Shown in pieces: positions 40,453 through 62,072 of a stretch of DNA of 64,000 nucleotides. How positions within the stretch are numbered: the first letter of the stretch is position 1; each line of letters opens with the position of its first letter. The stretch comes from Saccharibacillus kuerlensis DSM 22868 (GTDB taxonomy: Bacteria; Bacillota; Bacilli; Paenibacillales; Paenibacillaceae), in the NCBI RefSeq assembly GCF_000378145.1, contig NZ_KB899285.1, forward strand, positions 62,001 to 126,000, given 5' to 3'. Both the position numbers and the translations under genes were made by a program. A model generated the notes under the pieces. The model did not search any database, was not told the origin of the DNA, and saw nothing but the letters and a program-made list of their open reading frames with translations.

Positions 40453-40480
40453 AAAAAGCTGCCGAGAGTTTCTCGGCAGC
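40453..40480 (-). terminator. minus-strand terminator of the aldo/keto reductase gene
   Basis: GCTGCCGAGA, AAC loop, TCTCGGCAGC, then five T on the minus strand. Confidence 0.85.
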
Positions 40481-40546
40481 CTGTTGGGTTTCTTTAAGAA
40501 AGCGATTCGATTGACTGCATGGGTGATGTGATCGATTGCAATCGGA

Positions 40547-49666: not shown

Positions 49667-51397
49667 ATGGGATACATAAGCGGATACGGATCTTCGTTTT
49701 CGTCAGGTAGACGCGGCGGCTTCGGAATTCGCAAAATAGGAACGCTTCTGCTGCTAATCGGCAATTTGGCTTCGCTGCTGCTTGGCATTGCTTATTTATT
49801 GATCGACACACCTGCAGGATGGTGGAACTTATACGGGCTGCTGATGCTGCTGACACTGCTGGGGAATTTGCATTTGGCAATGGGGCGGGGCGTACATAGA
49901 GTTTGGGAGTATGTCTATCTCGCGCTGCATGCGCTTGGATTGACGGCGGTGCCGCTGCTGAATACGGTCGCTTCGGCTGCCGTTCGTGATTACGATTCCC
50001 GGAGCATCTGGTCGGCGGTTATTCTGTTGGCACTTTTTGCTGTAGGGACGGCTGTTGCCTTCTTAAGACTGCGCAGCGGTACGGAAGAGCGCGGAGACAG
50101 CAGGGGCGGATATTCGTCTTATTCTGCATACGGAAGAAATTCTGCCGAAAAAGGCTGGGTCAAAAAAGGTTTCAGAGGACTGCTTACAGTCTGGTTCCTG
50201 CTGAACTTGGCGCTAGGTGTGTATATGGCGGCTATTCTGATGGGTACGGTCGATCCGGGGCTGCTCGAAGTGGTTGTTCCGGAATATGCGCTGTTCTTCG
50301 GTCTGATGTTTCTTGGCGCGGCTGCCCTGCTGGTCAAAATGTACGGACAATCGGAGCGTTTCTTTGCAGGCGTATTCCGGGTCGGAGTACGGTGCATCAG
50401 TCTGTTTGTTTTTATCATATGTGTGCTGCCGCTCGCTTCGGCACCGAAAATTATTAGTGAAGCGAAGGAATCGTATACGGAGGCATTCGGCAGCAATCCG
50501 TTAGATATGCAGAACGAGCACTTTATGAAGACCGCTTTCCTGCTGCCGGATTATTTCTATGGAGCTAAAACCTCAGATTATCGCATCGAAACGGATATCG
50601 TCTATTATGAAGGTCAGGAAGGCGTTGACGCAGGCGTGAAACTGGCCTTCGATGCCTACATGCCTCCCGAAGGAGCAGAAGGTCTGCCGGGACAGGATTC
50701 GGTGCTGATCCGTATCCACGGCGGAGGCTGGACAATTGGAGATAAAGGGGCGGGCAACTACGCCCAGATGAATAAGTATTTTGCTTCGCAAGGTTATGTC
50801 GTCTTCGACGTGCAGTACGGCCTCAGCAATCAGAAAAAATTTGTGGAGTCGGCGCCAGTGCCGGAGCAAGTGGTAGGCGATTTCAATATCGACGATATGA
50901 TTCGTCATATCGGTCTGTTTACGACCTATATGGCGGATCATGCGGAGCAGTTCGGGGCAAATACGGAATCGGTATTTATTTCCGGCGGTTCGGCAGGCGG
51001 ACAGCTGGCGGCCGCAGCGGGGCTTGCGCCATTCGCTGAAGGTTTCGAGAACGTGATCGATTCCCGCTTAACGGTCAAGGGAATCATTCCTTACTACCCA
51101 GCCAACGGACTGGCGTCGGATATCGGTATTGCAGGCAGCACCGATGAGCTGTCCAATCCTGCGCTGCTTGTGAACGCGGGCAGCCCTCCGGCGCTTATCT
51201 ATCAGGGCGAACAGGACGGGATTGTCGATCCGGAGATCGCACAAACTTTCATTCGCGCGTATCGGGAAGCGGAGAATGAACAAGCCGCTCTTGTCGAAAT
51301 GCCGTTCGGTACTCACGGCAGCGACATCTATTTCCCGAGTTATTACAATGAGCCATTCACCTATATGATGGAGCGGTTTATGAATCAGTACAAATAA
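49667..51397 (+). CDS. membrane-anchored alpha/beta hydrolase (esterase/lipase type)
   Basis: A 576-residue fusion. The first 280 residues contain about seven hydrophobic helices with a Gly/Ser/Tyr-rich cytoplasmic loop near 140-160. The C-terminal 280 residues form an extracytoplasmic alpha/beta hydrolase of the hormone-sensitive-lipase/carboxylesterase class, with oxyanion motif HGGGW, nucleophile Ser in G-G-S-A-G-G, Asp in E-Q-D-G-I-V-D and His in F-G-T-H-G-S-D. ATG 49667 follows AAGGAGAGGG; the longer frame overlaps the divergent gene and is rejected. It may cleave an ester in wall polymers, lipids or an outside substrate. Confidence 0.85.
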   Translation: MGYISGYGSSFSSGRRGGFGIRKIGTLLLLIGNLASLLLGIAYLLIDTPAGWWNLYGLLMLLTLLGNLHLAMGRGVHRVWEYVYLALHALGLTAVPLLNTVASAAVRDYDSRSIWSAVILLALFAVGTAVAFLRLRSGTEERGDSRGGYSSYSAYGRNSAEKGWVKKGFRGLLTVWFLLNLALGVYMAAILMGTVDPGLLEVVVPEYALFFGLMFLGAAALLVKMYGQSERFFAGVFRVGVRCISLFVFIICVLPLASAPKIISEAKESYTEAFGSNPLDMQNEHFMKTAFLLPDYFYGAKTSDYRIETDIVYYEGQEGVDAGVKLAFDAYMPPEGAEGLPGQDSVLIRIHGGGWTIGDKGAGNYAQMNKYFASQGYVVFDVQYGLSNQKKFVESAPVPEQVVGDFNIDDMIRHIGLFTTYMADHAEQFGANTESVFISGGSAGGQLAAAAGLAPFAEGFENVIDSRLTVKGIIPYYPANGLASDIGIAGSTDELSNPALLVNAGSPPALIYQGEQDGIVDPEIAQTFIRAYREAENEQAALVEMPFGTHGSDIYFPSYYNEPFTYMMERFMNQYK

Positions 51398-51400
51398 AAA

Positions 51401-51648
51401 GAGCCGGGCGATAAGCCCGGCTCTCAGGTTGTTGATAAATTCCTATTCGTTATAGAAGCTCATTAACTGCAGGAGAAATTCGTTCCGGTCGCGTGTTGAA
51501 ATCGAGAAAAAGGATTAAATTTCAGTGTAATTTCTCGATTTCAAAGGCGAACGCTGGCGCTCCTACACTGAATTTCTCCCTCCGTACATTGGCTTCACCT
51601 TGAATCAGACTTTCTCGACACATTGAGCCGGGCGATAAGCCCGGCTCT
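51401..51648. mobile_element. terminator-nested short element, copy A
   Basis: A complete terminator hairpin (GAGCCGGGC-GATAA-GCCCGGCTC plus T) is present twice as an exact 24-bp direct repeat, at 51401-51424 and 51625-51648. Between them lie 200 non-coding bases (51425-51624). Read on the minus strand these start with AATGTGTCGAGAAAGTCT and end with AACAACCTG, and they match copy B in opposite orientation. An internal stem pairs GAAATCGAGAAA with TTCTCGATTTC. Only the second terminator copy keeps the T tract; before insertion there was probably a single bidirectional terminator. Confidence 0.75.
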
Positions 51649-51662
51649 TTTTATTTTGCGAA

Positions 51663-52712
51663 TCACGACTTCACAGTCTGCCGTCGGTATGGAACCGCCG
51701 AAGTTCTGTTCAACGGGGTTCCGGCTGTGCGCTCGGCTGGCCGGCTTTTTTCTTGCTTGGACGGATCGCCGGAGGTTTCTGACGTACCAAATGGCAGGTG
51801 GCCCGATTCCCTCTCCAATGGGTAGGCAATATTCGTCGGTATAACGAGTCCCAGCGTCTGCAGCTCGCCAAGAATGCAGGCGACATGATAGCGGTAAATA
51901 ATGGCTTGGGATTCGGACGACAGCGTACTCTCGGCTTTCTGGTTGGATGTCTGCAGTAAGCTGTTCCCCAGACTTGCGACGCCTTCGGGGTCGGGATCGG
52001 TCAGCAGACGAATCATTCGCATATGCGAATACGTATTGCGGTAGACGTCCAGTTCCTGTTCGATACGTTCGATCAGATCGTGCTGTTTGTTCTGACCAAT
52101 ATCGAATTCCTCCTTGTACGTATCGCAAGCTTTCTGCAGAGCGGCCAGGTCTTTTTTAAGCGGACTGATATGAACAGCGCCGCCCTGCCGGAGCAGATCA
52201 TGAGCCAATCGGTTCAGATGCCGCCGCACCTTCAGTCTGGCTTTTTCCAGATTTCGGTCATGTTTGGGTGGAGCGACGAAGTAGTTGACGAGCACCGCTA
52301 CTCCGATTCCGAGGAGCGTATCCAGCACACGATGCACCGCATAGGCGAAGGGCGCTTCGTGAGGCTGCAAGTTCAACATGATGGCAAGGAAAACGATCCC
52401 GGCGATCGAAACGGATTTGTTCCATTTCAGCATGTTGCAGACGGCGATTACACCTATGATACCCAGCGCCGACAAGTAGGCATTATGAGGTCCGATAAAC
52501 GCAAACAGACCGCCAAAAGCGGCACCAACCAAGGTACCCATTGTGCGGTTCTTGCCTGCGGCGTAAGAGCTGGTGATCGAACTCTCCATCGCGATAATGG
52601 TAGCGATCGCTGCATAGAACGGATATTCCAGATTTAGAAGCTTGGAGATCAGCAGACAGATCAGGACAGCGAGCGCCGTTTTGACCGTCCGCATCCCGAT
52701 TGAGAATCTCAT
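51663..52712 (-). CDS. aromatic acid exporter family (FUSC-like) membrane protein
   Basis: A 349-residue protein. Residues about 5-165 have six hydrophobic helices with the family opening I-G-M-R-T-V-K-T-A-L-A and the YPFYAAIATIIAMESS segment of the ArAE_1/DUF939 group. About 170-300 form a cytoplasmic helical domain, and the tail of about 50 residues is charged and disordered. ATG 52712 is chosen because family members begin there and AGGAAGGA lies upstream; a TTG at 52766 gives a longer form without a good site. Export of aromatic acids is known for distant relatives only. Confidence 0.8.
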   Translation of the reverse strand: MRFSIGMRTVKTALAVLICLLISKLLNLEYPFYAAIATIIAMESSITSSYAAGKNRTMGTLVGAAFGGLFAFIGPHNAYLSALGIIGVIAVCNMLKWNKSVSIAGIVFLAIMLNLQPHEAPFAYAVHRVLDTLLGIGVAVLVNYFVAPPKHDRNLEKARLKVRRHLNRLAHDLLRQGGAVHISPLKKDLAALQKACDTYKEEFDIGQNKQHDLIERIEQELDVYRNTYSHMRMIRLLTDPDPEGVASLGNSLLQTSNQKAESTLSSESQAIIYRYHVACILGELQTLGLVIPTNIAYPLERESGHLPFGTSETSGDPSKQEKSRPAERTAGTPLNRTSAVPYRRQTVKS

Positions 52713-52898
52713 ATTGGTTTCAAATCCTTCCTGATCGGATTTCAAATGTAAATAAACGATTTTCAAAATATTTACCTATGTGAAATATTATACGTACTTT
52801 TGGCTCATAGGGCAATTGTCGAAACTGTGGCAAGTTGCGAAAAGAAATGACTCCGGTTAAGGTGGAAGAAGTGAAGCGACAAGGGAGGCGGAAAGAGT

Positions 52899-53570
52899 AT
52901 GATTGAAGCGTTTATTTTCGATATGGATGGAGTCATTATCGACAGCGAACCGATGCATTTCGATGTGGATCGCCGGGTCATGGAGTACTACGGTTATCCG
53001 ATTACGCAGGAAAAGTTGGAAGAGTATGTCGGCATGACCAACCCTGAATTGTGGGCCGCGATTCGGGCTGAATTCGGCATGACCCAGACAGTGGAAGAGA
53101 TTGTCGAGTACCAGATGGGTCATAAGATTGAAGTGCTGCGAGCAGCGGAAATGGAACCGATCGACGGCATCTCCGATCTAATCGCCGAACTGGAAAAAGG
53201 CGGTATTCCGTGTGCTGTCGCTTCTTCGTCGCCACCAGTGTTTATCGAAGCCGTATTGGAGAAGTTCGGCCTGAGAGATGCGTTTAAGGCGGTAGCCAGC
53301 GGAGAGGAAGTACCGAGAGGCAAGCCGGCTCCAGACGTTTTTTTGCGTGCAGCTGAACTGCTCGGCGTTGATCCGGTGCGCTGCATTGTACTGGAAGATT
53401 CCAAACATGGCATCGACGCGGCGAAGGCGGCGGGTATGCGCTGTATCGGGTTCATCAATCCTAATTCCGGCAATCAGGATTTAACACGTGCGGATCTGAT
53501 TGTCGAAAATATCCGGGAGATCCGGCTGGACGATTTGGTAAAGGTGGAGGAAAAGGAAGACCGCGGCTAA
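52899..53570 (+). CDS. HAD-IA hydrolase of the beta-phosphoglucomutase-like group
   Basis: A 223-residue cytosolic HAD enzyme. Motif I DMDGVIIDSE holds the nucleophile Asp at residue 8 with a helical cap following (about 18-85). Motif II is in A-S-S-S-P, motif III Lys in the R-G-K-P-A-P-D-V-F segment near 147, and motif IV is LEDSKHG near 168. It resembles B. subtilis YhcW and related sugar-phosphate phosphatases; mutase activity cannot be told from phosphatase activity. ATG 52899 follows GGGAGGCGG. It ends at a bidirectional terminator shared with the chemoreceptor gene. Confidence 0.92.
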   Translation: MIEAFIFDMDGVIIDSEPMHFDVDRRVMEYYGYPITQEKLEEYVGMTNPELWAAIRAEFGMTQTVEEIVEYQMGHKIEVLRAAEMEPIDGISDLIAELEKGGIPCAVASSSPPVFIEAVLEKFGLRDAFKAVASGEEVPRGKPAPDVFLRAAELLGVDPVRCIVLEDSKHGIDAAKAAGMRCIGFINPNSGNQDLTRADLIVENIREIRLDDLVKVEEKEDRG

Positions 53571-53605
53571 CCGCAGAGTGTTTTACCGGTTTAAAAGTGA
53601 AAAAC

Positions 53606-53648
53606 AAAAAGCTGCGTTAGCGCACAATGCGCCTTCGCAGCTTTTTTT
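53606..53648. terminator. bidirectional terminator between converging genes
   Basis: AAAAGCTGCG..GCGCA against TGCGC..CGCAGCTTTT with A and T runs on both sides. Confidence 0.85.
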
Positions 53649-53668
53649 ATTATAACGAAATTGAGGGA

Positions 53669-55168
53669 TTAAGCCGTTTTGACCACCGATTTCCCTTCAG
53701 ACTCATCTTCATGGGAGCGCTCAGTCAGCCCACGCAGCGCTTCGATCATGACGTCGAGCTGAGTCACACTGTCGGAAATGCGACGGATCGAATCGCGTTG
53801 ACGGTATACGCCGCTGGTCGCAAGTTCCACCGAAGCCGATGTCTGCTGACTAATGGCAGAGAAGTCAGCGATCTGGCCGGCAACATCTCCGTTGAATTCT
53901 TTCAGGTTGGCGATGTTTTGCTGCATTTCGCTCGACTTGCCGAGTACGTTCGCAGCGTCCTGTGTAATGCGTTCGAACAATTCACCAGTCTCGTACGTGC
54001 GGCGTTCCAGTCCTTCGATCGTCGATTCACTCTTACGGACGTAATCTGATACGATACCCGTCTGGCTGCGAATCTGCTGAAGCAGGCCTGCGATGTCTTC
54101 GGCAGAAGATTGGACGTTGCCGGACAAGCTGCGAATTTCGCCGGCGACGACTGCAAAGCCCCGGCCCTGCTCGCCGGCACGGGCGGCTTCAATGCTGGCG
54201 TTAAGCGACAGCAGGTTCGTCTGATTGGCAATTTCCGTAATGGCAGTCAGAATAGCTTGAGCTTCCTCGGCATACCGGTTCAGCAGGCCAACCTGTGAGA
54301 CCGTTTCGGTCATGCTGCCGCGTACAAGGGACATATCTTCGCGAAGTTCTTCCGCTTTGCGGCCGCCTTCCTCGGTAAGCTGGGTCGTACTGCGGGACAA
54401 GTTGTTCATTTCGCTTGTTTCCCAGCTGATCCGCTCAATGTTATCACCGGATTGAATCATGGCTTCGTTAATTTCTTGAATGCTCTCCGCCTGCACTTCT
54501 ATGCCCTTGGAGATTTCTGCGAAACTTCCGGCCGCTTCCTCGGCGATCCGAGTCGTTTCGTTTGCGCCCGAAGCGACCGACTCGCCGAAAGATTTGAGTT
54601 CTGCCGTAGAGCGTTCAACTTCGTCCAGCAGTTCTTCAATCATGTCTTTCTGTCGTTCAGATTCTTCAATCATGCTCCGACCAACCATACATACGGCGTA
54701 GCTGGTGGCGCCGATCATAACTGTGACAACGTAGATTACAGCATATTCGATAATTGGATGAGGCGGTACGAACGGATTGAACAGAAATTGAACAGTAAAC
54801 GAGACGAGAGCCGTAATCGTTCCAACGATTACAACTTTTTTAGACAGATAGATGTTCATCAGCGACATGTAGATGAAGAAAGCGATCACAGCAAGGCTGC
54901 TTGGGATGAACAGGAACAAAACATTGCCGACGATAAAGCAGCCGATTACAAGTACGTATTTGCCAATATTTTTATCTGCGACATACCGGTAGAGTAGATA
55001 GTAACCGCCAATCAGCAAAGCATTGGCACCAAACAAGGACAGCATATCGTTAAGGGAAACAAGTTTTGTCAACCAAAATATGGCAAACAGCGGATACAGG
55101 GAGGTAAGGAGTGATAAGATGGTGTAAAAAATTAAAGTGGAAGAACGTCTTTCAAATTTAGTCGGCAT
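53669..55168 (-). CDS. chemoreceptor with multi-helix membrane domain and no HAMP
   Basis: A 499-residue methyl-accepting protein of unusual build. Residues 1-170 hold about six closely spaced transmembrane helices with almost no outside loop, then a short coiled coil runs straight into the signalling domain (about 190-490) with the tip [20 protein letters not shown] near residue 320. No HAMP domain or large sensor is visible, so it may sense a membrane-linked signal or act through partners. ATG 55168 follows AAAGAAGGGA. A sigma-D-type promoter lies 76 bases upstream, as for the other chemoreceptor gene. Confidence 0.9.
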
Positions 55169-55243
55169 AGCCGCAAATCCCTTCTTTCTTGGTAGTTGTA
55201 GTCCACGATCAGCAGTGAAGGTGCCGAAATAAGGCTAACATTC

Positions 55244-55270
55244 TTATCGGCAGAAGAAGCGTTTTGTTTC
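55244..55270 (-). promoter_or_regulatory. sigma-D-type promoter of the second chemoreceptor gene
   Basis: On the minus strand GAAA (55270-55267), 15 bases, then GCCGATAA (55251-55244). This matches TAAA-N15-GCCGATAT at 10 of 12 positions. Confidence 0.75.
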
Positions 55271-55419
55271 ACGCATTCGACAAAATTCGCAAAAAAAACT
55301 CTATCGTTTGTTTACCGGGCAAAAGAGGTAATAGATAGCATAAATCGAATGGGTACGAATTCAGCATCGAAAAGACAAGCCGGACGTGACGAACGATCAT
55401 GAAGGAGGATACACCTGAT

Positions 55420-56700
55420 ATGACGAAAAATGGACAAACCCCGCAGGAAAAGACGCTGGATAGCAGCCTTGCCCTGCTCAAAGACGGATATGATTTTATT
55501 TTCAAGCGCCGCAGAGAAATGGATTCCGACATTTTCCAAACACGACTGCTCGGGCAGAAAGCGATCTGTATTGGCGGTAAAGAAGCGGCGGAACTGTTTT
55601 ACGATACGTCGAAGTTCCAGCGTTCCGGAGCGATTCCGAAGCGCATTCAGAAGTCTTTATTCGGTGTGAATGCCATCCAGACGCTGGACGGCGAAGCGCA
55701 TCGCCATCGCAAAATGATGTTTATGTCGCTGATGTCACGGGAGCGGCTCGACGTCTTCATCGAGCTGCTGGCGGAAGAATGGGAAGCGGCCATTCTTCGG
55801 TGGGAAGAGCTTGAGGAAGTTGAACTGTTCGGCGAATCTACGGAACTGCTGTACCGGGCGGCCTGCCGCTGGGCGGGAGTGCCGATAGACGAAGAAACGG
55901 TGCGCGCCAAGGCGGAAGATATGAGTGCGATGGTCGAAGCGTTCGGGGCTATAGGGCCTCGGCATGCTGCGGGACGCAGTGCACGGCGGCGGACAGAGGA
56001 ATGGCTGGAAGGATATATTATGGATCTGCGTGCCGGCGAATTTAAGGTATTTGAAGAAACGGCGGCTTATGCGATGGCATTCCACCGCGATCTGAAAGAC
56101 CGTGAGCTGGATGCGCGAATGGCGGCGATCGAGCTGATCAATATTCTTCGCCCTATCGTAGCAATCGGATACTATGTCGTATTTAATGCGATGGCGCTGC
56201 ACCAGTATCCGGAGTACAAGGAGAAACTTGCGGCAGACGAAGGGAAATACCGGCAGTGGTTCGTTCAGGAAACACGCCGTTATTATCCGTTTACGCCGTT
56301 CCTTGGCGCTTCGGTCATCCACGACTTTACGTGGAAAGGTCACGAGTTTGAAAAAGGCACAATGGTGCTGCTGGACATATACGGCACGACACATGATCCC
56401 AAATTATGGGATGAAGCGGACAAGTTTAAGCCTGAACGGTTCGAGCATTGGGACAGCGGCCCGTTTGACCTGATCCCGCAGGGCGGAGGCGGATACGACG
56501 GACACCGCTGCGCGGGTGAATGGCTGACGATTGATGCAATGCGGGTGGCGCTGGAATACCTGGCAAACCGTATCGAGTATGAAGTGCCGGAGCAGGATTT
56601 GGACTTGAGCTTGTCGCGGATGCCGGCGCTGCCGGAAAGTCATTTTGTGATGAAAAATGTGCGGCGCAAGCCGGGAGTCGGTGCTTTTTCCGGTGTGTGA
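55420..56700 (+). CDS. cypC: fatty-acid peroxygenase cytochrome P450 (CYP152, YbdT/CypC)
   Basis: Hydroxylates or decarboxylates fatty acids using hydrogen peroxide instead of a reductase. The 426 residues closely resemble B. subtilis YbdT (P450BS-beta). Instead of the usual acid-alcohol pair in helix I it has ELINILRPIVAI near residue 235, with the Arg-Pro that binds the fatty-acid carboxylate. The heme region is PQGGGGYDGHRCAGEW with the Cys ligand near 367. ATG 55420 is chosen for its AAGGAGG site 11 bases before; ATG 55399 has none. A terminator with an inserted element follows. Confidence 0.95.
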   Translation: MTKNGQTPQEKTLDSSLALLKDGYDFIFKRRREMDSDIFQTRLLGQKAICIGGKEAAELFYDTSKFQRSGAIPKRIQKSLFGVNAIQTLDGEAHRHRKMMFMSLMSRERLDVFIELLAEEWEAAILRWEELEEVELFGESTELLYRAACRWAGVPIDEETVRAKAEDMSAMVEAFGAIGPRHAAGRSARRRTEEWLEGYIMDLRAGEFKVFEETAAYAMAFHRDLKDRELDARMAAIELINILRPIVAIGYYVVFNAMALHQYPEYKEKLAADEGKYRQWFVQETRRYYPFTPFLGASVIHDFTWKGHEFEKGTMVLLDIYGTTHDPKLWDEADKFKPERFEHWDSGPFDLIPQGGGGYDGHRCAGEWLTIDAMRVALEYLANRIEYEVPEQDLDLSLSRMPALPESHFVMKNVRRKPGVGAFSGV

Positions 56701-56755
56701 TCAGTTCAAAGATTGATATCCGAAGAACAAGCGGCAGCAAATCGAACACAAAAAA

Positions 56756-57048
56756 AGCCTCCGAACTCATTCGGAGGCTCAACGTGTTGAGAAAGTCTTT
56801 TTTTGTGAGAATCCAATAAAAGAAAGAGGAAATTCAGTGAAGGAGCGCCAGCGTTCGCCTTTGTGGTGCAAGTTCACCCAAGATCAGGATGTGAACTTGC
56901 ACCGCTAATCGAGAAAATTCCAATAAAATTTAATCCTTTTTCTTGATTTCAACACGCGACCGGAACGAATTTCCTCTGAAGTCTCTATGGATTCTCTACG
57001 GATAGGACTTTCTCGACAGCCTGAGCCTCCGAACTCATTCGGAGGCTC
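56756..57048. mobile_element. terminator-nested short element, copy B
   Basis: A terminator hairpin (AGCCTCCGAA-CTCA-TTCGGAGGCTC) occurs as an exact 25-bp direct repeat at 56756-56780 and 57024-57048, around 243 non-coding bases (56781-57023). The insert begins AACGTGTTGAGAAAGTCT and ends GACTTTCTCGACAGCCTG, so its ends are inverted repeats (TGTYGAGAAAGTC). Two long blocks match copy A in reverse orientation. A further hairpin with 13-bp arms (56865-56877 with 56891-56903) sits at a point where copy A has nothing. Confidence 0.75.
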
Positions 57049-57083
57049 TTTATCTTACGGATCAGATCGATAGTTAAAAAGGT

Positions 57084-58295
57084 TTAGACCTCGGCTTTGG
57101 ACGACCGCAGCTCCGCCACCGCCATCTTCAGCTGCTCCATCGCTTGTTCCACGATCGAGCGCGAGCAGGCAACGTTCATACGCATAAATCCTGCGCCTTC
57201 GATACCGAACATCGTTCCGTCGTTCAATGCGATACCGGCTTTGTGCAGCAGGAACTGCATCAAGTCCTTGGCTTCCATATTCAGGCCGCGGAAATCGATC
57301 CACAGCAGATAGGTCGCTTCCGGCAGCTTAACGGACAGTTCCGGCAGATGCTCTTCAATCTGGCTCTGCACGTACTCCATATTGCCGCGTACGTACGTCA
57401 GCAGCTCGTCGAGCCACGGTCCGCCGTGCTTATAAGCCGCTTCCGTCGCAGTTGCGCCGAGCGTATTGATGGAGCCGAGTCCGTGCATTTTGGCAACGGT
57501 CCGTTCAAACTTCAGCCGCAGCTTGCGGTTCGGGATAATAATGTTCGATACCGACAATCCGGCCAGGTTGAACGTCTTGCTTGGTGCCGTGCAGACGATA
57601 CAGTTGTCGCGTGCCGCTTCTGAGATAGAAGCGTACGGCACATGCGATTTGGGTTCGAAGATCAGGTCCGCGTGAATCTCGTCGGCGACGACAAGAACAT
57701 CGTGCTTCAGACAAAGCTCCGACAGCTTCTCCAGATCGGCACGCGACCAGATGCGTCCGACCGGATTGTGCGGGCTGCAGAGAATAAGCATCTTGACGTC
57801 ATCCGCAAGCTTGCGGTCCAAGTCTTCAAAATCCATTTCATAGCTGCCCGCCTCGGTGACCTGCAGCGGGTTCATCACCAGCTGCCGTCCGTTTTCACGC
57901 ACAATATTGTAGAACGGCGGATATACCGGCGTCTGAATTGCGATCTTGTCACCTGGCTGCGTGAATGCTTCTACGGCAAATGCAAGCGCAGGCACAACGC
58001 CCGGCGTGAACGTAATCCAATCGGGATCAATACTCCAATTATGCCGCTCCTGCATCCAGCTTACAACCGTATCGAAGTAGGCCGGCGTACGGAACGTGTA
58101 CCCGAAGATTCCGTGGTCTACCCGCTTGTGCATCGCGTCCAATACTTCCTGCGGGGCAGCAAAGTCCATATCTGCAACCCATAGAGGCAGCGCATTAGGT
58201 GCTCCGAACAACTTTTCTCGAGAATCCCATTTCTCGGAAGCGCTCTGCAGACGGTCGATCTGTGTGTGGAAGTCGAAGCGGCTTTTTAACGTCAT
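57084..58295 (-). CDS. PLP-dependent C-S lyase/aminotransferase (PatB/MalY family)
   Basis: Fold-type I pyridoxal phosphate enzyme of 403 residues that cleaves C-S bonds, for example cystathionine to homocysteine, or cysteine, in this family. The opening FDFHTQIDRLQSASEKWD with L-P-L-W-V-A-D-M-D-F is typical of PatB/MalY. The cofactor Lys lies in A-P-S-K-T-F-N-L-A-G near residue 238, the Asp of V-V-A-D-E-I-H near 208, and the substrate-carboxylate Arg in F-M-R-M-N near 375. ATG 58295 follows AAGGAGG. It fits with the metNIQ importer in sulfur metabolism, though the two are far apart. Confidence 0.92.
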   Translation of the reverse strand: MTLKSRFDFHTQIDRLQSASEKWDSREKLFGAPNALPLWVADMDFAAPQEVLDAMHKRVDHGIFGYTFRTPAYFDTVVSWMQERHNWSIDPDWITFTPGVVPALAFAVEAFTQPGDKIAIQTPVYPPFYNIVRENGRQLVMNPLQVTEAGSYEMDFEDLDRKLADDVKMLILCSPHNPVGRIWSRADLEKLSELCLKHDVLVVADEIHADLIFEPKSHVPYASISEAARDNCIVCTAPSKTFNLAGLSVSNIIIPNRKLRLKFERTVAKMHGLGSINTLGATATEAAYKHGGPWLDELLTYVRGNMEYVQSQIEEHLPELSVKLPEATYLLWIDFRGLNMEAKDLMQFLLHKAGIALNDGTMFGIEGAGFMRMNVACSRSIVEQAMEQLKMAVAELRSSKAEV

Positions 58296-62043: not shown

Positions 62044-62072
62044 AAGGCTGTCGAGAAAGTCTCGACAGCCTT
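62044..62072. terminator. perfect hairpin with ends like the terminator-nested elements
   Basis: AAGGCTGTCGAGA and its exact complement surround AAG; a T-rich stretch follows. It can terminate the SLH gene at 60994. The sequence GGCTGTCGAGAAAGTC is the same as the reversed right end of element copy B. Confidence 0.65.

Follow-up and report, generated by a model that had tools for sequence, protein, structure and literature searches.

Long, palindromic target duplications are listed in ISfinder for insertion sequences (IS) of the IS1182 family, and the IS1182-type MITE is a kind of element that is already known. Wan et al. (2017; PMC5678879) state that palindromic targets had already been mentioned in a review for certain IS1182 members, but without detailed data. 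IS1272 and TnSha1 of staphylococci, which belong to this family, resemble the elements described here in that their targets are hairpins, including several terminators, chosen with little regard to sequence; unlike them, they are reported to delete or replace the stem-loop without duplication (passages of PMC4923244 and PMC5678879). The data in these passages of both papers are of stem-loop removal by IS1272. In the model of Wan et al., as given in excerpts of PMC5678879, joining of IS1272 at the 3' feet of an extruded stem-loop would remove the stem-loop, while joining at the 5' feet (their Figure 13, pathway b, which is hypothetical) would duplicate it. The ISMac2-related MITEs of Methanosarcina acetivorans, of 160 and 169 bp, are likewise assigned to an IS1182 element, but going by the columns of a table in PMC3852290 their duplications are apparently of 4 and 0 bp. 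The SPRITE, RUP and BOX sequences of pneumococcus are also short intergenic repeats, of which SPRITE is itself terminator-like, whereas the MITE described here targets an existing terminator (passages of PMC3049150). In the literature on IS1182, IS1272, terminator targeting, MITEs with terminators and Paenibacillus repeats, judged by titles, the beginnings of abstracts and passages, neither the present family nor whole-terminator duplication on a genome scale is reported. As far as the literature searched shows, whole-terminator duplication at such a scale and the structured core shared by the copies are new.

Two Small Elements Between Doubled Hairpins

The window, a stretch of 64,000 nucleotides from the genome of Saccharibacillus kuerlensis DSM 22868 (G000, 4.70 Mb), holds two members, A and B, of one family of non-coding MITEs of about 200 bp. 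The initial annotation had described them as homologous non-coding elements that match in inverted orientation over two blocks, each lying between perfect repeats of a whole terminator hairpin, and both points hold. The repeat finder aligns A with inverted B at 90% over 68 nt and at 73% over 117 nt, the flanking hairpins falling within the latter stretch, and no ORF of at least 60 aa lies wholly inside A or B, the overlapping ORFs entering from outside. Direct reading and the repeat finder agree on perfect direct repeats of 24 bp around A (51401-51424 and 51625-51648) and of 25 bp around B (56756-56780 and 57024-57048). Each is a complete stem-loop with T-rich or A-rich tracts on its outside, with RNA folding energies of -21.4 kcal/mol for the right hairpin of A and -16.4 kcal/mol for both hairpins of B.

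Of the boundaries first proposed, the CCTG end stands, while the extent was off by one base in each copy. The family consensus starts with CAACG or CAATG and ends with CCTG; because the element ends were set by it, one ambiguous base per copy was reassigned from the repeat to the element. Copy A is then a MITE of 201 bp on the minus strand (51425-51625) with a duplication of 23 bp, and copy B one of 244 bp on the plus strand (56780-57023) with a duplication of 24 bp. A has its CAGG-type end on the left and its CAAYG-type end on the right (CAATGTGTCGAGAAAGTC on the minus strand). Its left hairpin copy (51401-51424) reads AGCCGGGCGATAAGCCCGGCTCT plus the ambiguous base and is preceded by CAAATAAAAA, with which it could, judging from the sequence, terminate leftward transcription; the right copy (51625-51648) is followed by TTTTATTTTG. 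The left end of B is CAACGTGTTGAGAAAGTC and its right end CAGGCTGTCGAGAAAGTC (minus strand), with CAAAAAAA preceding the left hairpin copy (56756-56780) and TTTATCTTAC following the right one (57024-57048). B is the longer of the two through an extra hairpin of about 43 bp in its central stem, near 56863-56907 on the plus strand (arms 56860-56877 and 56891-56908), which was seen both by the repeat finder and in the alignment and is missing from A. A is flanked by an esterase-like ORF, which ends at 51397, and by a second ORF that converges on it and has its 3' end at 51663; B is flanked by a cytochrome-P450-like ORF, which ends at 56700, and by an aminotransferase-like ORF that converges on it and has its 3' end at 57084, these names being putative and given by reading of the translations alone.

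Distribution of the Family

Searches with B and A returned about 40 loci in the window genome, 38 of which were examined. When 98 genomes were searched, this one included, strong copies were found in nine of the 15 other genomes of the genus and none in the remaining six, and outside the genus the matches were confined to about 25-30 nt of the inner block. In one relative (G003), 126 candidates were noted at first look, 40 of which were scored, giving 42 matches. The copies tested are the best matches listed, so that totals per genome are at least those counted. The length is 202 bp in 63 of 95 near-full-length copies, and copies of the B type carry the extra hairpin. G003 also has a tandem pair in which two MITEs lie among three hairpins, in the order hairpin-MITE-hairpin-MITE-hairpin.

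Recurrence of the Hairpin Duplication

The initial annotation had proposed a search of the genome and its relatives for further copies, with a test of their flanks. For this the element ends were located by two 18-base end sequences alone, blind to repeats, and about 50 bases on each side were then compared. From 163 copies fetched, 131 had both ends, and 32 were dropped as truncated, at a contig edge or diverged. Against a null of 13,674 mismatched left-right pairs from different genomes (99.9% level 15, maximum 18), direct repeats exceeded the 99.9% level in 103 of the 131 copies, a recurrence which establishes that the arrangement is not due to chance. The positive copies number 18 of 27 in G000, 42 of 47 in G003, 13 of 13 in G002, 10 of 10 in G008, 6 of 7 in G009, 5 of 9 in G011, 2 of 5 in G006, 7 of 11 in G015 and 0 of 2 in G013, where one negative copy is counted twice among the 131 (L039 and L390). 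One copy, L118, was wrongly anchored in this test and has its repeat in an earlier test of the window's own genome, in which 19 of 38 copies lay above the null maximum and 26 above the null 99% level. A separate test of 30 G003 copies placed none above the null maximum of 32 (99% level 12), a maximum that is probably due to the tandem pair (L187/L188); since its null reached 32, the test of 131 copies was used instead. Copies lacking the duplication, which had been named as a sign against insertion into terminators, do occur, but only as a minority: 28 of the 131 fail the test, and by eye about half of these still have two related, diverged hairpins.

In a shuffle test, a hairpin abuts both element ends in 110 of the 131 copies, one end in 20 and neither in one. 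A second, gapless set likewise comprises 103 copies, 97 of them common to the first set; in the 102 with a scorable stem (all except L339) the duplication is 16-35 bp long, with a mean of 24.9. The palindrome spans within 2 bp of the duplication length in 83 of these 102, with a correlation of 0.90, which is partly built in as the span was measured within the duplication. A T-tract or A-tract lies on the outer side of at least one hairpin in 97 of the 103 gapless copies (on both sides in 59) and on the element side in seven, so that the outer side of each hairpin retains its own tract. Of 95 copies whose ends are good, 65 are bordered by T on the left and by A on the right, and the orientation of the element relative to the T-tract is without bias (19 vs. 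19).

The paired hairpins differ at 47 of 1946 stem sites and at 44 of 466 loop sites, with six fully compensated stem pairs, a distribution that points to continued selection on the doubled hairpins as terminators. Correction templated by the hairpin at insertion was considered from the compensatory differences at L201 and L209 and rejected: the hairpins of G009 at these sites are compensated too, and ordinary terminator selection is therefore enough to account for both loci.

Empty Sites in Related Genomes

For 19 insertions of G003, the flanks were joined with a single hairpin and searched in G009, the first 12 also in G002. A continuous single-hairpin match across the junction was found in another species of the genus for 14 of them. 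Seven of these empty sites match over 159-160 of 160 bases at 91-96% in G009; those of L191 and L210 match at 80% in G009 and 86% in G002, respectively, and further empty sites in G009 are those of L192, L197, L201 (shortened), L204 and L209. At L200 the insertion is common to G003 and G009, with both hairpins present in G009. No full empty site was found for L195 and L211, which gave partial matches only, or for L205 and L208, which gave none.

The site of A was read by eye in nine relatives. Six of them lack an element there and have a single terminator with A- and T-tracts; G008 likewise lacks an element but has two unlike hairpins. The left neighbour is a different one in G011, and in G014 an element of its own lies between two hairpins. 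At the site of B, G006 and G014 have the same neighbours with a short gap and one terminator-like hairpin each; in G015 an element lies next to the same gene on the right, and the other relatives are rearranged. Relatives that all carry the double terminator without the middle element, the other pattern that had been named as telling against insertion, were not seen.

Relationship to IS1182-Family Elements

Transposase genes of the IS1182 family are present in G002, G003 and G006, with remnants in G000 and G009. The only clear copy seen in G000 is decayed and no intact IS1182 was found there; none of this type was found in the MITE carriers G008, G013, G014 and G015, and G011 has only a distant match of 20% identity. 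In several carriers, therefore, the driver has been lost or is a different one. Two IS1182-like end remnants lie in the window itself, at 40455-40490 (GCTGCCGAGAGTTTCTCGGCAGCCTG) and 62044-62070 (AGGCTGTCGAGAAAGTCTCGACAGCC). Elsewhere in G000, the decayed element at C30:34977-35830 (L064, L089) has both ends and two flanking hairpins that differ, as if recombined or diverged, and a remnant at C13 near 18776 (L403) with one end and close transposase fragments is, by eye, apparently internally deleted. In the same genome the DDE part of the IS1182 model also matched weakly at five places (E 3.5e-6 to 1.5e-4; C23:58614-58943, C13:117858-118154, C46:106-402, C4:288539-288835 and C1:267824-268105), in open frames of 158-218 aa that mostly lie near contig ends.

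Within the genus, four IS1182 elements with CAG...CTG ends lie between duplicated hairpins of 20, 21, 26 and 31 bp. In a broader sample of 80 IS1182 loci (Paenibacillus, Cohnella, Proteobacteria, Lentisphaera and others), both ends were located by sequence in 70. Repeats of at least 12 bp flank 48 of the 70 and are hairpins by the shuffle test in 47 cases; a long repeat is absent from the other 22, at least eight of which abut contig ends by their range. Duplications as long as a hairpin, initially thought unusual, are thus the rule among the sampled IS1182 loci.

Compared with IS of this family (NCBIfam NF033551, e.g., the 1568-bp elements of Saccharibacillus), the MITE has a CAGG end identical over 15 bp to that of the genus elements and the same CTG/A...T/CAG boundaries, hairpin target and whole-hairpin duplication, but no transposase. 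The 18-bp CAGG end of B recurs at 18 of 18 positions in 19 IS1182 loci of other genera, among them four partial ones from one species, and at 17 of 18 in the Saccharibacillus elements, while the CAACG-type end has only about 10 bp in common with IS1182 ends (TGTCGAGAAA). Nor is there an IS-derived interior in the 73 rows returned by blastn of A and B against 86 loci, which besides the ends, nearby MITE copies and the core hold only matches of 14-22 nt; an origin of the interior from an older parent IS is possible. One terminator in G006 has received both kinds of element (hairpin-MITE-hairpin-IS1182-hairpin, i.e., three hairpins), and this common target ties the MITE to IS1182. A terminal repeat matching at the CAGG end, a short sequence without transposase in many copies, the target and duplication of the autonomous IS, and single-target empty sites for 14 of 19 insertions together mark the family as MITEs of the IS1182 family.

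The IS1182 transposase at L062:1471-2831 is split over two frames, and 29 of 74 readable IS1182 loci are frame-shifted, 28 of them by -1. An in-frame A_AAA_AAG occurs in 28 of the 29 shifted loci, but also in 18 of 45 unshifted ones. The split frames would fit programmed frameshifting, and frame transitions in IS1182-family (DUF772) genes have already been discussed, as passages of PMC3711429 indicate.

A Structured Core Shared Across Repeats

The two conserved blocks pointed out initially are the halves of a covarying core that is widespread in the taxonomic family of the window's organism. It consists of GGAGCGnnAGCGTTCGCCTTTG, a long variable stem and CAACAGCGACCGGAA (with one extra C in Saccharibacillus); in A, where the blocks flank the long stem, it lies at 51483-51567 on the minus strand and corresponds to the covariance-model match G000:C9:113483-113567, also on the minus strand. 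Across 16 diverse copies, both partners have changed in 12 of the 21 pairs predicted for the core. The covariance model, built partly from three of its 17 matching genomes (G000, G021 and G043) and searched under strict filtering with no more than 22 places per genome scored, matched all 17 listed genomes of the taxonomic family and none of 183 other genomes in the sample of the class (20 listed, 163 not). Among 149 genomes of the order, 101 contain the 13-mer GCGTTCGCCTTTG, with as many as 48 occurrences in one genome, while its reversed control reaches no more than three; at 30 loci read by eye the second half of the core was present at about half, so that many single matches to the 13-mer are due to chance. 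Rfam gave three matches for window positions 51000-57500, all far below the gathering threshold, and the core is without an Rfam match.

The core is also found in repeats with other or no clear ends. As a unit of GCGTTCGCCTTTG, stem and CAACAGCGAYCGG it forms a high-copy repeat in the taxonomic family and beyond (L241:4028-4115, L040-L048, L450-L469, L470-L481), in at least three settings by eye, namely with IS1182-type ends, with ATATAAGTTGAAC-type ends and, in G154, with GTGTTCAAAAAGTT-type ends. Together with hairpin duplications it occurs in two other genera, at L462 and L466 in one and L432 in the other. When 27 loci with core repeats from other genera were tested, five had a repeat of 11 bp or more, three of them hairpins (the same L462, L466 and L432), and around the G154 core repeats hairpin duplications were found at none of 10 loci; not all core-bearing repeats therefore duplicate hairpins.

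A Model of Insertion and its Alternatives

The family, its ends, the hairpin-long duplications, the empty sites, and one end sequence and the targets common to IS1182 are observed. Very probably, these MITEs are mobilized in trans by IS1182-family (DDE) transposases that target hairpins by shape, join at the 5' feet and duplicate the whole hairpin at little harm to the host. An IS1182-family transposase would move the copies in trans and pick an intrinsic terminator as target by the shape of its stem-loop, presumably as a cruciform or hairpin, and not by its sequence. The two element ends would be joined to the stem-loop at its outer (5') feet, one per strand, as we infer from the insertion products, and gap filling would copy the whole hairpin, making the duplication as long as the hairpin. 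Each neighboring gene would keep one hairpin with its own T-tract, so that insertion would be nearly harmless and copies could accumulate. Pathway b of Wan et al. (PMC5678879, in the passages cited above) would account for the products seen in this family and in its IS1182 relatives. Insertion into a terminator with a long target duplication, as the initial annotation had read the locus, is borne out by the 103 of 131 copies, by the empty sites of 14 of 19 insertions and by the identity of the end with that of hairpin-duplicating IS1182 loci; its suggestion of movement in trans would fit elements that encode nothing in a genome whose sole clear IS1182 is decayed.

That the element is kept for a useful structured core, a functional 3'-UTR cassette (RNA or DNA module) which IS1182-type ends have spread and for which mobility is secondary, seems unlikely to us. 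The changes on both sides of 12 of 21 predicted pairs, the confinement of the model's matches to all 17 listed genomes of the taxonomic family (0 of 183 others in the class sample) and the presence of the core in repeats with other ends speak for it, but palindromes of mobile elements can also change in step, and many copies are decayed. We give a slim chance to an ordinary MITE with short duplications that inserts anywhere, of which only the copies beside terminators survive, the second hairpin arising by local duplication or gene conversion. The copies do sit between genes, where selection is weakest, and the differences between paired hairpins (loops 44/466, stems 47/1946) are as expected for terminators under selection. 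Selective removal of insertions at other places could look like target choice, but it would not yield duplications as long as a hairpin; moreover, the exact long duplications directly abut the element ends, one hairpin is present at the same site in another species, and IS1182 loci in other phyla have the same duplications. Least probable, to the point of being hardly credible here, is stem-loop replacement of the IS1272 type, in which the hairpin or part of it is removed upon insertion: IS1272 is a member of the IS1182 family and targets hairpins including several terminators (passages of PMC4923244 and PMC5678879), yet the hairpin in our family is doubled and not lost, and the empty sites have one hairpin.

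Beyond insertion in trans with whole-hairpin duplication, we offer a wider reading only tentatively, as somewhat doubtful: a branch of IS1182 transposases in several phyla may join at the 5' feet of the extruded terminator stem-loop, with the duplication length set by target shape and terminators doubled at little cost, and in the taxonomic family of the window's organism its elements may have picked up the conserved, covarying structured core, which is also carried between other ends and possibly functions as an RNA or DNA module.

A transposition that senses the shape of its target and duplicates the entire target would be a rare kind of target choice, and about a hundred natural examples in eight genomes, together with autonomous relatives and empty sites, make the model testable. 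The covarying core adds a high-copy structured motif without an Rfam match. The MITE also exemplifies how an element may spread and yet leave the neighboring genes terminated.
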